Assembly (NCBI GenBank): GCA_017883165.1
Contig: JADGOC010000022.1
Location: 1-35,226 of the forward strand
From: Acidobacteriota bacterium
GTDB taxonomy: Bacteria; Acidobacteriota; Vicinamibacteria; Vicinamibacterales; CAVVIG01
Reading direction: 5' to 3'
DNA: 35,226 bases
This document shows positions 29,708 through 35,226 of the stretch, piece after piece. The notes below the pieces were generated by a model. It saw only the letters and a program-made list of their open reading frames with translations. It was not told the DNA's origin and did no database searches. Each line of letters starts with the position of its first letter. Position 1 is the stretch's first letter. The translations under genes were made by a program, and so were the position numbers.

Positions 29708-29980
29708 ATGGCATCTCCAAACGAACCAGGCGACGAAGCCTACGAGATCGCGCTCGACACGGCGGCCGAGATCCCTTCGGACTGGCAGAAGGTGGCGGTC
29801 TACAAGATTGAGCTGCCGGTCCGCTGCCCGCACTGCCGCGAGCCGATCCGCGAGCTTCGCGCGCTGCGGCTGAGCCGCGCGCAGGTCGCGTTCACCTCGA
29901 CGCTCCCGCGCAGCGGCCGCATCCTCGTCTGTCCGCTCTGCGAGCGGATCATCTCTGCCGAGCTGACGGGATTGGTCTAG
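29708..29980 (+). CDS. Small zinc-ribbon protein of unknown function
   Basis: A 90-residue protein with an N-terminal acidic part (SPNEPGDEAYEIALDTAAEI) and a compact zinc ribbon: VRCPHCREPIREL and, about 30 residues later, ILVCPLCERIIS, giving two CPxC knuckles. I do not recognise a named family. Two starts are possible: ATG 29708 (GGCGGGAA upstream) and ATG 29654 (MSKGAVPADRLLEGG), eighteen codons earlier. The stop TAG shares its bases with the stop of the convergent radical-SAM gene in a palindromic CTAG. Confidence 0.7.
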   Translation: MASPNEPGDEAYEIALDTAAEIPSDWQKVAVYKIELPVRCPHCREPIRELRALRLSRAQVAFTSTLPRSGRILVCPLCERIISAELTGLV

Positions 29981-31482
29981 GCCGGAACGCTGAGGTCGGG
30001 CATGGGCCGGCCAGAGAAGAACCGGCGGGTCGGCTTGGCGATCCACCGCGCCCACTGCGCCGCGCGACCGACGCGCGCGCTATCGGTCGCGATGCCGGTA
30101 TTGGCGTACATCTGGCGGTACAGCTTCGACACGAGCACGAAGGCCAGCCGCGATTTCAGCGACTCGACGCAGTGCGCGCGCTCCCAAATATTCTTGAAGC
30201 TGTAAAAGCGATCCCAGGCGCCTTGCGTGCCGGCCCGGATGTCGTCGGCCGACATCACCGGATGCGGGGTGTACACCTTGGGCCGCATCCCGTCAGGAAT
30301 CAGCCAGTGGCGCGTGAGCGGCGTACCCTCGATCCGCGTCGGATCGTTCTCCATCTTCTTTTCCCAGGCGGCGAAATCGTTCGTGCCGGGAAACGGCGTC
30401 AGCATCACGAACTGCGCGAACGTCACGCCCGCCCGCTGCGCCACGTCGACGGTCGCGCCGAAGGTGGACGGCCCGTCGCTCGGCAGCCCGAAGATGAACG
30501 AGCCGAGCACGTGCACGCCGTGATGCTTGAATGAGCGCAGGCGATCGACGAGGTGCTCGCCCGCCTCGTTGAAGCCTTTATGCACGTCCTTGAGCCCCTC
30601 GGCCGTCACCGACTCGACGCCGACGAGCGCGCCCTTGATGCGCGCGCTGCGCATGGCGTCGAGGAACTCGGGATCCTCGGCCGCTTCCATCGTGATCTGC
30701 GTGAAGAAGATCATGTCGTCCGGCATCGCGGCGAGCCGGCGCATCAGCTCGAAGCGCTCGTCGCGGATGGCCTTCAGCGTCTCGTACTGCGCCTTGTCGG
30801 CGCGCCGCGAGGCCATTTGCAAATCGGTGAGCGTGACGGGGTAGAAGTTGTCGTCGGCGAGCGCGATGAAGCGGAAGCCGCGGCGCCGCAGTTCGGTGAC
30901 CTCCCGAATGACGCCGTCGCTCGGGCGCTGGCGCGGACGCTGGCCGTCGGTCTTCCACACCGAGCAGAACGAGCAGTGCTTCGGGCAGCCGCGCACGGTC
31001 TGCACCGACGCCCACATGTAGCGATCCTGCGGCATCAGATCCCACCGCGCCGGCAGCAGATCCTCGGGCTCGACGCGTCCGCCGTCGTAGACCGGCACGA
31101 GCGTGCCGGCGACGCAGTCCCGAATCGCCTGGCCCCACGCGATGTCGCCGTCGCCCTTGACGACCGCGTCGGCACAGCCGAGCCGCTGCGCCTCTTCAGG
31201 AAACAGCGTTGCGTGAATGCCGCCGAAGACGACGCGGGCGCCCCGCTCGCGCGCGATCCTGCCGATTTTGTAGCCACGCAGCGCGTTGCCGGTGTGAATG
31301 CCGATGCCGACGATATCGCCGGCGGCAATGGTGTTGGGGTCGAGCACTTCGAGCGTTTCATCGACGATGACCGGGTCGCCGAACGCCCGAGGCGTCGCTT
31401 CCGCCAGGACGAACAGCCAGCGCGGCGTGATGACGCCGATGCCGAATGACACGTCGCTCGGATTAATCAGATGTATTCTCAT
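29977..31482 (-). CDS. B12-binding-domain radical-SAM protein
   Basis: This 501-residue protein has an N-terminal cobalamin-binding-like Rossmann domain (MRIHLINPSD; GDIVGIGIHTGNALRGYKI; ARVVFGGIHATLFPEEA) and then the radical-SAM cluster motif C166-x3-C170-x2-C173 (RGCPKHCSFCSVWK). DDNFYPVTL, GALVGVESVTAEGL and VLGSFIFGLPSDGP complete the barrel, and an extra C-terminal domain follows. This layout is shared by methylases and other enzymes of lipid or natural-product pathways (for example hopanoid-modifying enzymes); the substrate is not readable here and no pathway partners are adjacent. ATG 31482 lies five bases after a TATCGT box, without a ribosome site, so the message may be leaderless. 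Confidence 0.88.
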   Translation of the reverse strand: MRIHLINPSDVSFGIGVITPRWLFVLAEATPRAFGDPVIVDETLEVLDPNTIAAGDIVGIGIHTGNALRGYKIGRIARERGARVVFGGIHATLFPEEAQRLGCADAVVKGDGDIAWGQAIRDCVAGTLVPVYDGGRVEPEDLLPARWDLMPQDRYMWASVQTVRGCPKHCSFCSVWKTDGQRPRQRPSDGVIREVTELRRRGFRFIALADDNFYPVTLTDLQMASRRADKAQYETLKAIRDERFELMRRLAAMPDDMIFFTQITMEAAEDPEFLDAMRSARIKGALVGVESVTAEGLKDVHKGFNEAGEHLVDRLRSFKHHGVHVLGSFIFGLPSDGPSTFGATVDVAQRAGVTFAQFVMLTPFPGTNDFAAWEKKMENDPTRIEGTPLTRHWLIPDGMRPKVYTPHPVMSADDIRAGTQGAWDRFYSFKNIWERAHCVESLKSRLAFVLVSKLYRQMYANTGIATDSARVGRAAQWARWIAKPTRRFFSGRPMPDLSVPA

Positions 31483-31493: not shown

Positions 31494-31627
31494 CCTAAGG
31501 TTCCTGGCTGCTGGGCGTCCGGCGAATCGCGTCCGCTAAGGACGAGCGGCGCGGCATGGCAAGAAAGAAACGGTTCATGAGTCTAGCCCTTCCGGCAGTA
31601 GGGGTCAACCAAGGCGTGTGCCTGTGC

Positions 31628-31633
31628 TATTCT
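31628..31633 (+). promoter_or_regulatory. -10 box for the peroxiredoxin gene
   Basis: TATTCT preceded by TGC (extended -10 form), 23 bases before the ATG at 31657, with AAGGAGG in between. The rest of 31483-31627 shows no gene; a small GTCC/GGAC hairpin lies near 31530-31545. Confidence 0.5.
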
Positions 31634-31656
31634 GCCCTCGATCTCAAGGAGGTTCG

Positions 31657-32235
31657 ATGACGCGTATCTTTCGCTTTCTTTCCGGGGGACTGGTTGTGTC
31701 CGGGCTGCTCATGACGCCCGCGGCCCCGTTTGCGAGAACCGGAACCGCCGCCACGGCCGAGGAGCTCAAAGCCGGCGACCCGGCGCCGGACTTCACGCTG
31801 CCCGGCACCGACGGCAAGCCCCACACGTTGTCACAGCTCAAGGGCCAAACGGTCGTTCTGGCGTGGTTCCCGAAGGCGTTTACCGGTGGTTGAACGGCCG
31901 AATGCAACTCGCTCCGTGCGAGCGGGGAACTGATTCGTAAGTACAACGTCGCGTATTTCATGATCAGCGGGGACACGCCCGAGGACAACAAGGCCTTCGC
32001 GGAAAAAGAGCACGCCGACTTCACGATGCTGTCCAACCCGGACAAGAAGGTCGCGATCGCGTACGGCGTCATCGCCGCCGACGCGCCGCCCGACCGGCAG
32101 TACGCCAAACGATGGACGTTCTACATCGGTCCAGACGGCAAGATCATCTTCATCGATAAGCAAGTGCATCCGGCAACGTCGGGCGAAGACGTCGTGGCGA
32201 AGCTCAAGGAGCTCAACGTACCGGAACGGCGGTAG
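31657..32235 (+). CDS. Secreted Bcp/PrxQ-type peroxiredoxin with in-frame UGA at the catalytic position (probable selenoprotein)
   Basis: Peroxiredoxins of this type reduce peroxides with a peroxidatic cysteine in the motif FPKAFTxGCTxEC. Read through the TGA at 31891-31893, the 192-residue protein has a signal sequence ([20 protein letters not shown]), then [34 protein letters not shown], [TGA, residue 79], [13 protein letters not shown] with the second Cys at 83, and [20 protein letters not shown]. After these come [17 protein letters not shown] and a complete C-terminus ending [10 protein letters not shown]. The TGA replaces exactly the peroxidatic Cys; the frame continues with full family similarity and normal codon use. 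Selenocysteine at this site is known in other peroxiredoxins. The start ATG has AAGGAGG six bases upstream. The alternative is a one-base nonsense mutation (TGC or TGT to TGA). Confidence 0.85.
31891..31936 (+). promoter_or_regulatory. Candidate bacterial SECIS hairpin after the UGA
   Basis: After the UGA (31891-31893) a 5-bp stem CTCGC / GCGAG (31908-31912, 31918-31922) closes on loop TCCGT, with a possible lower stem GAAT / ATTC (31900-31903, 31933-31936). The loop guanine is 23 bases after the UGA. An alternative fold CTCC / GGGG (31912-31915, 31924-31927) would put GT at the start of the loop, which fits bacterial SECIS rules better. Which fold SelB would bind cannot be decided by eye. 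Confidence 0.5.
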
Positions 32236-32244
32236 CTTCGGTGT

Positions 32245-35226
32245 TCATCGCGTCGCGCTGATGCTGATCGGCGGCACGTTCGCCGCCTTCAGCGTCGCGT
32301 TGAGCGCCGCCAGATCCGATCCTTCGAGCGCAATCCAGCGCGCCATCAGCTTCGCCGCCGCCTGACGCCGCTCGCCGACTGCGGCTGCCAGTGGCGCGGT
32401 CGGCGTCGCGTCGGCGGCCTGCAGCGTCGCCATCAGCGGCGCCAGCGTGCCGCCCACGCACGAGAGGGTGTCCGGCGCCCCTTGAGCGGGGCCGCCGCGG
32501 CCGCCACCAGCGCCGCGGCCGCCACGCCCTCCGCCCACCCCGCAGGACCCTTCGATCGCCGCGGCCTTCTTGTCGAAATCGGCGAGCGCCTGCGCGGCCG
32601 GACCCTGCGCGGCGCGATCCTGGGCCGCTTTCACCAGCGCCCGCAGCGCGCGAATCTTGTCGACCGCGGCCTGCGCGCTCGCCGTGGCGTCGTAGAGCGC
32701 CTTCGACAGCGTGAACTGCTGCGCGAGGCCGAGCGCCGGCGTCCGCACGCGCGGATCCGTTTTGAGCGTGAGCGGCTGCGTGTAGCTCTTGCCGTTGACG
32801 GTGAGTTTCACGGTGTATGCGCCCGGCGCGGCCCACGGCGTCGATGGCGCTGGGACGGTGTTGTGCGCGACCGCCGCGATCGGCAGCCCGCCGCGCCCGC
32901 CGGCCGCGCCAGGAATCGGCTGGTAGTGCACATCCCACAGGAAGCGATGCATCCCCGCCGCGGCCGACAACGATTGCGGCGGGCGATACCAATACAACGG
33001 AACCGGCGCCGTCGCCGGATCGGGCGTCTCGATCGGATCGGTGCTCGCGTAGCGCCGGACGAGTCTGCCGGAGGCGTCGAGAATCTCGAGCGTCACCGGC
33101 GTCGCCGCCGCACCCTTCAGCGCGTAATTGATGATCGCGCCGTCCGGCGGATTCTCTCCCGTCGCCTCGTCGGGCGGAATCGGCGTGTCCGTGTTGGTGT
33201 TCCATCGCACGCGATACGCGACCTCGGGCTTGAAGAGCACCGCATCAGAAGCCGCCGCGGCGGCGTCGAGCTGACGCAGCGGCGTGATGTCATCCAGGAT
33301 CCAGATGCCTCGGCCGTGCGTGCCGGCAATGAGATCGTCGTTCTTGACGATGAGATCCCGGACCGAGGTGGCCGGCATGTTCAGCCGCAGCGACTGCCAG
33401 TTGTCGCCATCGTCGAACGAGACGTAGACCTGGCGTTCGGTGCCGGCGTAGAGGAGGCCCTTGCGTTTGGGGTCTTCGCGGACGACGTTGACGGGCGCGC
33501 CGTCGGGGATGCCGCTGGTGATGTGCGTCCACGTCTTGCCGCCGTCGCGTGTGCGGTAGATGTGCGGCGACATGTCGTCGAGCCGCAGCGTGTTGATCGC
33601 GGCGTACGCGGTCAGCGCGTCGAAGTGCCCGGCGTCCATCAGCGACACTTTCGCGAACGGCTTCAGGTCCGGCGGCGTCACGTTGGTCCAGTGGCTGCCG
33701 CCGTCGATTGTCACGTGGATCAGCCCGTCGTCGGTGCCGGCCCAGATGCGGTTGATGTCGAGCGGTGACGGCGCGACGGTGTAGATCACGCCGCGCTGGC
33801 TCGGCTGCGCCGTCGGGTCATTCTTATACTTGCCGACGGTGGGCGGCACCTCCCACGTCGGACGCGAGAGGTCGGGGCTGATCTGCGTCCACGCCTGGCC
33901 GCCGGTGGACGTCTTCCACAGCGTGTTGCCGGCGTAGTAGAGGACGTGCGGATCGATCGGCGAGAAGAGTACCGGGGCGGTCCGCAGCGTGCGGATGGCG
34001 CCGCGTCCTCCGGCGGTCGGCGCGACGTTCTGCACCTGGTTGGTCCGCCGGTCGGTGCGCGTCGGCGCGCGGCCGCCGTAGATGATCTCCGGATTGAGCG
34101 GGTCGGGCGCGGCGTAGCCGTATTCGTCGACGCCGACGGGGTGCCAGTCGCGGAACGTGATCTCGCCGTCGTTGCCGCGGCTGGAGACGCACGCCGAGCC
34201 ACTCTCTTGCTGGCCGCCGCAGACGTGATAGGGGAACGCGTTGTCCGCCGCGACGTGATACATCTGCGCGGTCGGCTGATTGAACCACGAGCTCCACGTC
34301 TCGCCGCCGTTCACAGTAATGATAGTTCCCTGGTCGCTCGCTATCGCGATGATGTCCGGGTTGACGGGATTGATCCACGCGCGCTGATAATCGTCGCCGC
34401 CGGGCGCGCCGCGAATGCCGGTCCACGACTTGCCGCCGTCGATCGACTTCCAGGTCACCACGCTCGCGACGATCAGCATGTCGGCGTTCTTCGGATTGAC
34501 GACCGGCACGGGGAGATCGCCGCCGCCGATGCGTCCGGCGGGGCGGTTGTCGGTCGTGGCCCGCGTCCAGGTCTCGCCCGCGTCGTCGGATCGAAAGATG
34601 CCGACGGCCTGCCCGGTGGCGACCGTCGCGTACAAACGGCGCGGATCGCTCGGCGCGGCCGCGATGTCGGCTTGCGTCACGCCCTCAGGCAGCCCTTTCG
34701 TCAGCGGCTTCCACGTATTGCCACCGTCGGTCGACTTGAAGATGCCGCCGTTGGTGCCGTTCCACGCGCCGTTTTCCCATGGGCCCTGACGCGTTTCCCA
34801 CAGGCACGCGTACAGGATGTCGGGGTCTTTCGGATCGAATTCGAGATCCGAGGCGCCGGTGTTTTCGTCCTTGTAGAGGATCTTCTGAAATGTGCGGCCG
34901 CCGTCGGTCGAGCGAAACACGCCGCGCTCTTCGTTCGGTCCGTACGGATGTCCCAGGACGGCGACAAACAGCCGATTCGCGTCGCGCGGGTCCACGAGGA
35001 TGTAGGGAATCTGCTGGCCGTCGCGCAGGCCGAGATGTGTCCACGTCTTGCCGGCGTCGATCGACTTGTAGATGCCATCGCCGGTCGACAGATCGGGGCG
35101 CGCGATGCCTTCGCCGCTGCCGACGTAGACGATGTTCGGATCGGAGGGTGCGACGGCGACGGCGCCAATCGAGCCGGTCGGCTGATCGTCGAAGATCGGC
35201 TGCCAGGTGCGGCCGTAGTCGTTGGT
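32245..35226 (-). CDS. BNR/sortilin-like repeat protein, C-terminal part (runs off the window)
   Basis: At least 993 residues are here; the frame is open to the window edge, so the N-terminus is missing. The first two thirds are many beta-propeller blades with Asp-box/BNR motifs: SIDAGKTWTHLG, STDGGRTFQKIL, STDGGNTWKPLT, SDDAGETWTRAT, SIDGGKSWTGIR, TRDGGKTWTHIT and FDDGDNWQSL. After the propeller comes HGRGIWILDDITPLRQL, the typical family closing motif, then Ig-like beta domains (GAYTVKLTVNGKSYTQPLTL) and a Gly-rich segment near residue 860. Such proteins are numerous and secreted in Acidobacteriota, commonly annotated as glycosyl hydrolase or VPS10-like, though no catalytic residues are identified here. 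The stop faces the peroxiredoxin stop nine bases away. Confidence 0.9.
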   Translation of the reverse strand, partial: TNDYGRTWQPIFDDQPTGSIGAVAVAPSDPNIVYVGSGEGIARPDLSTGDGIYKSIDAGKTWTHLGLRDGQQIPYILVDPRDANRLFVAVLGHPYGPNEERGVFRSTDGGRTFQKILYKDENTGASDLEFDPKDPDILYACLWETRQGPWENGAWNGTNGGIFKSTDGGNTWKPLTKGLPEGVTQADIAAAPSDPRRLYATVATGQAVGIFRSDDAGETWTRATTDNRPAGRIGGGDLPVPVVNPKNADMLIVASVVTWKSIDGGKSWTGIRGAPGGDDYQRAWINPVNPDIIAIASDQGTIITVNGGETWSSWFNQPTAQMYHVAADNAFPYHVCGGQQESGSACVSSRGNDGEITFRDWHPVGVDEYGYAAPDPLNPEIIYGGRAPTRTDRRTNQVQNVAPTAGGRGAIRTLRTAPVLFSPIDPHVLYYAGNTLWKTSTGGQAWTQISPDLSRPTWEVPPTVGKYKNDPTAQPSQRGVIYTVAPSPLDINRIWAGTDDGLIHVTIDGGSHWTNVTPPDLKPFAKVSLMDAGHFDALTAYAAINTLRLDDMSPHIYRTRDGGKTWTHITSGIPDGAPVNVVREDPKRKGLLYAGTERQVYVSFDDGDNWQSLRLNMPATSVRDLIVKNDDLIAGTHGRGIWILDDITPLRQLDAAAAASDAVLFKPEVAYRVRWNTNTDTPIPPDEATGENPPDGAIINYALKGAAATPVTLEILDASGRLVRRYASTDPIETPDPATAPVPLYWYRPPQSLSAAAGMHRFLWDVHYQPIPGAAGGRGGLPIAAVAHNTVPAPSTPWAAPGAYTVKLTVNGKSYTQPLTLKTDPRVRTPALGLAQQFTLSKALYDATASAQAAVDKIRALRALVKAAQDRAAQGPAAQALADFDKKAAAIEGSCGVGGGRGGRGAGGGRGGPAQGAPDTLSCVGGTLAPLMATLQAADATPTAPLAAAVGERRQAAAKLMARWIALEGSDLAALNATLKAANVPPISISATR

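Follow-up and report, generated by a model that had tools for sequence, protein, structure and literature searches.

A probable selenocysteine-containing peroxiredoxin with a signal-peptide-like N-terminus in the Vicinamibacterales (Acidobacteriota)

The window analyzed here is a stretch of 35,226 nucleotides from an Acidobacteriota bacterium of the order Vicinamibacterales. On its forward strand, positions 31657–32235 encode a peroxiredoxin of 192 amino acids when one in-frame UGA (31891–31893) is read as selenocysteine (Sec), as delimited by translation, a PF00578 match and order-wide homologues. An AAGGAGG ribosome-binding site (31646–31656, forward strand) stands just before the ATG at 31657, and the frame ends with TAG at 32233–32235; the TGA at residue 79 (U79) is its sole odd codon. 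In the list of open reading frames the gene appears only as two fragments, 31618–31893 and 31960–32235. The first-pass annotation had described two frames of the same phase parted by one TGA, with the halves of a peroxiredoxin active site on either side and the catalytic Cys as the missing residue. Translation as a single frame bears this out, and the TGA falls on the peroxidatic-cysteine position. Both neighboring genes are on the reverse strand. A radical SAM protein (29977–31482), whose B12-binding match is weak, is divergent from the peroxiredoxin gene, with no sign of a link between them, and a large sortilin/BNR-repeat protein (32245–34995) is convergent with it.

The Pfam profile PF00578 spans the TGA, matching residues 40–164 of the 192-residue protein (E = 2.4e-30). 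The active site reads TGGU, with U79 in place of the peroxidatic cysteine of the peroxiredoxin motif PxxxTxxC. The domain, together with an invariant T, C/U and R and a near-invariant P, places the protein among the peroxiredoxins; the catalytic set P44, T48, C51 and R124 (numbering of alignment A2) is conserved. Cys83 (TGC, 31903–31905, forward strand), which forms a UxxxC pair with U79 and is a candidate resolving cysteine, is also invariant in this alignment, and the residue four places after site 79 is Cys in 90 of 90 order-wide loci. An AlphaFold2 model based on a 43-sequence alignment (pLDDT 96) places U79 and Cys83 (model residues 51 and 55) within one helix (49–60). Among solved structures, PrxQ/Bcp and AhpE come closest in both sequence and fold. 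When the window protein was compared with the NCBIfam models, none reached its cut-off. Because the best profile, PrxQ NF006960, scored 89 bits against a curated cut-off of 140, the protein is PrxQ-like and is not assigned to that equivalog. The PrxU model NF040737 scored 40.7, below its curated cut-off of 270.

The N-terminus (31657–31755, forward strand) is an uncharged hydrophobic stretch that resembles a signal peptide with a putative cleavage site. Based on a simple hydropathy rule for a hydrophobic N-terminal segment, such a stretch is present in 165 of 168 UGA forms and in 39 of 39 Cys forms. Since nearly all members start in this way, the window enzyme is probably exported. Of the signal sequence and export proposed in the first-pass annotation, the former is supported by composition, with a signal-like stretch in nearly all homologues, and the latter stands as a prediction. 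The protein might instead be a selenoprotein that is not an exported peroxidase, acting in the cytoplasm or as a thiol-disulfide oxidoreductase through its UxxxC pair. Export and activity are both predicted properties of the window protein, and UxxxC differs from the CxxxxC spacing of E. coli-type PrxQ. However, the N-termini of the homologues, the conserved catalytic set and the best structural matches, which are PrxQ/Bcp and AhpE peroxidases, make this alternative unlikely.

We examined the codon at site 79 in 209 related loci. It is TGA in 170, TGC in 38, TGT in 1 and no other codon in any, with UGA enriched among the 118 loci that were picked by a TGA-containing pattern. The 90 loci fetched from the order-wide search, in which Cys loci were over-sampled on purpose, comprise 51 with TGA, 38 with TGC and 1 with TGT. 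Site 79 therefore alternates only between TGA and TGC/TGT, as the first-pass annotation had expected of a Sec codon. Relatives are present in 137 of 162 genomes of Vicinamibacterales, and the UGA form is found in about 103 of the 162. A scan of a genome collection returned the UGA form of the pattern KAFTxGUTxEC in at least 118 stretches. The titles among the matches listed include Acidobacteriota, Planctomycetota, Verrucomicrobiota, Gammaproteobacteria and others, although titles of metagenome bins may be wrong; plasmids gave no match. Across a tree built from 188 proteins, at least 7 switches between Sec and Cys are required, of which at least 3 are forced by well-supported branches. Downstream of the TGA, pN/pS is 0.20–0.37, about as low as upstream. 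By this measure selection on the region after the codon is purifying, and the decay that the first-pass annotation had listed among contrary signs is not seen. In two genomes a Cys form directly adjoins a UGA form on one contig (L190 and L053 on G054:C174; L199 on G114:C223), an arrangement suggestive of a tandem duplication whose copies diverged into Sec and Cys forms.

A SECIS-type hairpin (31908–31926, forward strand) follows the UGA, as judged by pairing and covariation. Its stem of 7 bp (31908–31914 with 31920–31926) encloses the loop CGUGC (31915–31919), which begins 21 nt after the UGA. When the T of TGA is numbered 0, positions 17–23 pair with 29–35 around a five-base loop. Loop position is mostly 21 nt in UGA forms, and a G occupies one of the first two loop bases in 145 of 151. 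Of 153 distinct UGA forms, 114 retain all seven pairs, as do 0 of 39 Cys forms; among the UGA forms 93% of cells pair, compared with 30–66% when the register is slid by 1–3 bases. For pairs 17/35, 21/31 and 23/29, compensatory changes exceed those in all 1000 shuffles, a comparison that ignores relatedness. Pair 23/29 is C-G in 119 forms, G-C in 22 and G-U in 5, with 0 of 1000 shuffles as good, and it couples the synonymous third base of a Leu codon (CTC/CTG) to GAG versus GAC/GAT. Such synonymous coupling is a signature of selection on the RNA and not on the protein. The arginine within the loop uses the conserved codon CGT in 91% of UGA forms, as compared with a CGT share of 11% in the rest of these genes and 12% in the genes of the window. 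A conserved, covarying hairpin thus lies immediately 3' of the UGA, one of the features by which bacterial selenoproteins are recognized.

Folded as a single sequence, the window hairpin has no exceptional stability of its own (z = -0.71). UGA and Cys forms were not told apart by codon-preserving fold z-scores, whereas position-specific pairing and covariation did distinguish them. Cys forms have SLAE next to the site where UGA forms have SLRE, and part of the hairpin contrast between the two may come from this difference in protein sequence. The synonymous covariation is independent of that contrast.

These patterns bear on the possibility of a pseudogene or a sequencing error, in which a TGC was mutated or misread to TGA. 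The change requires one step, and a lone TGA in an otherwise intact gene of a 334-contig assembly could be taken for such a case. However, the source genome encodes a second peroxiredoxin (L003:1387–1944 on contig C23), 49% identical to the window protein, that has TGA at the same site. Because of this paralogue and of a census restricted to TGA, TGC and TGT, a chance TGA is excluded. The paralogue and 170 loci of several phyla share the codon, their sequence after it is intact and selection there is purifying, and the RNA covaries; together these observations led us to reject this explanation as highly improbable. The hairpin is retained in the C23 paralogue, with A-U in place of C-G at the stem base.

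The source genome (4.24 Mb, 334 contigs) is rated 100% complete. Profile searches found selA on contig C57 (543.7 bits), selB on C270 (345.1 bits) and selD on C46 (340.5 bits), and a tRNA-Sec on C89 scored 62.1 bits, above its gathering score of 47, with anticodon UCA assigned by ARAGORN. All four genes that the first-pass annotation had named for a search are thus present. The selD gene (L029, C46:13294-14259, reverse strand) has its own in-frame TGA, in CAGU, and is a further gene, unrelated to the peroxiredoxin, that uses this codon; SelD (MSKRLTQMVACAGUASK) is itself a predicted selenoprotein. In the WAxxUGC_long profile search no member was above the cut-off. An in-frame TGA in a conserved protein could also reflect a variant code that assigns UGA to another amino acid, or readthrough by an ordinary tRNA, but since TGA is the normal stop of the S58 peptidase, sulfatase and selB genes of this genome a general code change is excluded, and with alternation to Cys codons only and a full set of sel genes we rejected this barely credible explanation.

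Across the order, the match was recorded as containing a TGA in 104 genomes, with the position of the TGA read individually in the fetched loci. Taking E <= 1e-60 as the threshold for presence, selB was found in 89 of the 104, and 14 of the other 15 have selA, with partial matches in two of them (G039 and G141). The last exception (G104) has TGC at site 79 in its fetched locus. Thus, of 103 UGA-form genomes, 89 have selB and the remaining 14 have selA. Among the 15 Cys-only genomes without selB, 14 are also without selA. Matches to the tRNA-Sec model at about 50 bits occur in four genomes with Cys forms only and no selA (G065, G067, G090 and G092), and are possibly other long-arm tRNAs or relics.

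We conclude that the UGA at 31891–31893 is very probably decoded as selenocysteine, with a probability of roughly 0.97. The first-pass annotation had reached the same reading, with which the sel genes, the Sec/Cys alternation, the covariation of the hairpin and the recurrence in relatives agree. The sequences themselves show the frame, the machinery, the Sec/Cys alternation, a conserved RNA element and a predicted peroxiredoxin fold; from these we infer decoding in the cell, export, the substrate, the resolving role of Cys83 and the reductant. SelD would make selenophosphate, and SelA would convert Ser-tRNA-Sec to Sec-tRNA-Sec, which SelB, on the hairpin after the UGA, would deliver so that residue 79 becomes selenocysteine. 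After export, the selenolate would attack H2O2 or an organic peroxide to give a selenenic acid. Cys83, which lies one turn further along the helix, would most likely resolve this acid to a selenenylsulfide, and an extracytoplasmic thioredoxin-like reductant would then reduce the selenenylsulfide.

Sec-peroxiredoxins of the TxxU type, to which that of Eubacterium acidaminophilum belongs, form a recognized selenoprotein family (PMC1794560, PMC2398784, PMC9312934, PMC13188914), and the first-pass statement that Sec replaces Cys in some bacterial peroxiredoxins matches the literature (PMC1794560, PMC2398784, PMC13188914). For Acidobacteria, 4 selenoproteins in 3 families were reported in 2006 (PMC1794560), and a further study (PMC12013277) screened a single Acidobacteriota genome. 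The first-pass annotation knew of no exported Sec-peroxiredoxin in Acidobacteriota; we found no description of one in the open-access literature, so its claim holds for that literature and for the exported form, Sec-peroxiredoxins themselves being already known. The exported UxxxC branch, common in Vicinamibacterales and outside the NCBIfam models at their cut-offs, is apparently undescribed there.

With this gene, soil bacteria whose use of selenium has received little description gain a selenoenzyme that is well supported and probably exported. Ordinary gene finders would split or shorten it, and public annotations are probably wrong for many UGA peroxiredoxins, given split or truncated calls and no NCBIfam model at cut-off. 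The covarying hairpin provides a natural series for SECIS versus coding constraints and for SECIS loss in Cys forms. More broadly, the exported branch (signal peptide, FTGGUTxEC, UxxxC) may be distinct and widespread, belong to the standard peroxide defence of the envelope in Vicinamibacterales and in further soil and marine bacteria (Planctomycetota, Verrucomicrobiota, Gammaproteobacteria), escape the family models now in use, and perhaps be a main reason why these lineages retain selenocysteine; we judge the odds of this proposal to be about even.

Among known systems, the TxxU selenoprotein peroxiredoxins (pfam00578/COG1225) share with the window protein the PF00578 domain and Sec at the peroxidatic position of PxxxTxxU. 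The window protein differs in its signal-like N-terminus, its UxxxC pair, its Vicinamibacterales host and its sub-threshold NF040737 score. The PrxQ/Bcp thiol peroxidases (NF006960; Xanthomonas and Sulfolobus structures) provide the best NCBIfam profile and are among the best PDB fold matches. In contrast to them, the window protein scores below the family cut-off, has Sec in place of Cys and a second Cys at i+4, and starts with a signal-like segment. The 1-Cys peroxiredoxin AhpE of Mycobacterium tuberculosis is close in fold (1xxu, TMt 0.87) and has, like the window protein, an FTG-type active site. As the title of 1xxu states, AhpE is a Cys enzyme with a single active cysteine, whereas the window protein pairs U79 with Cys83.
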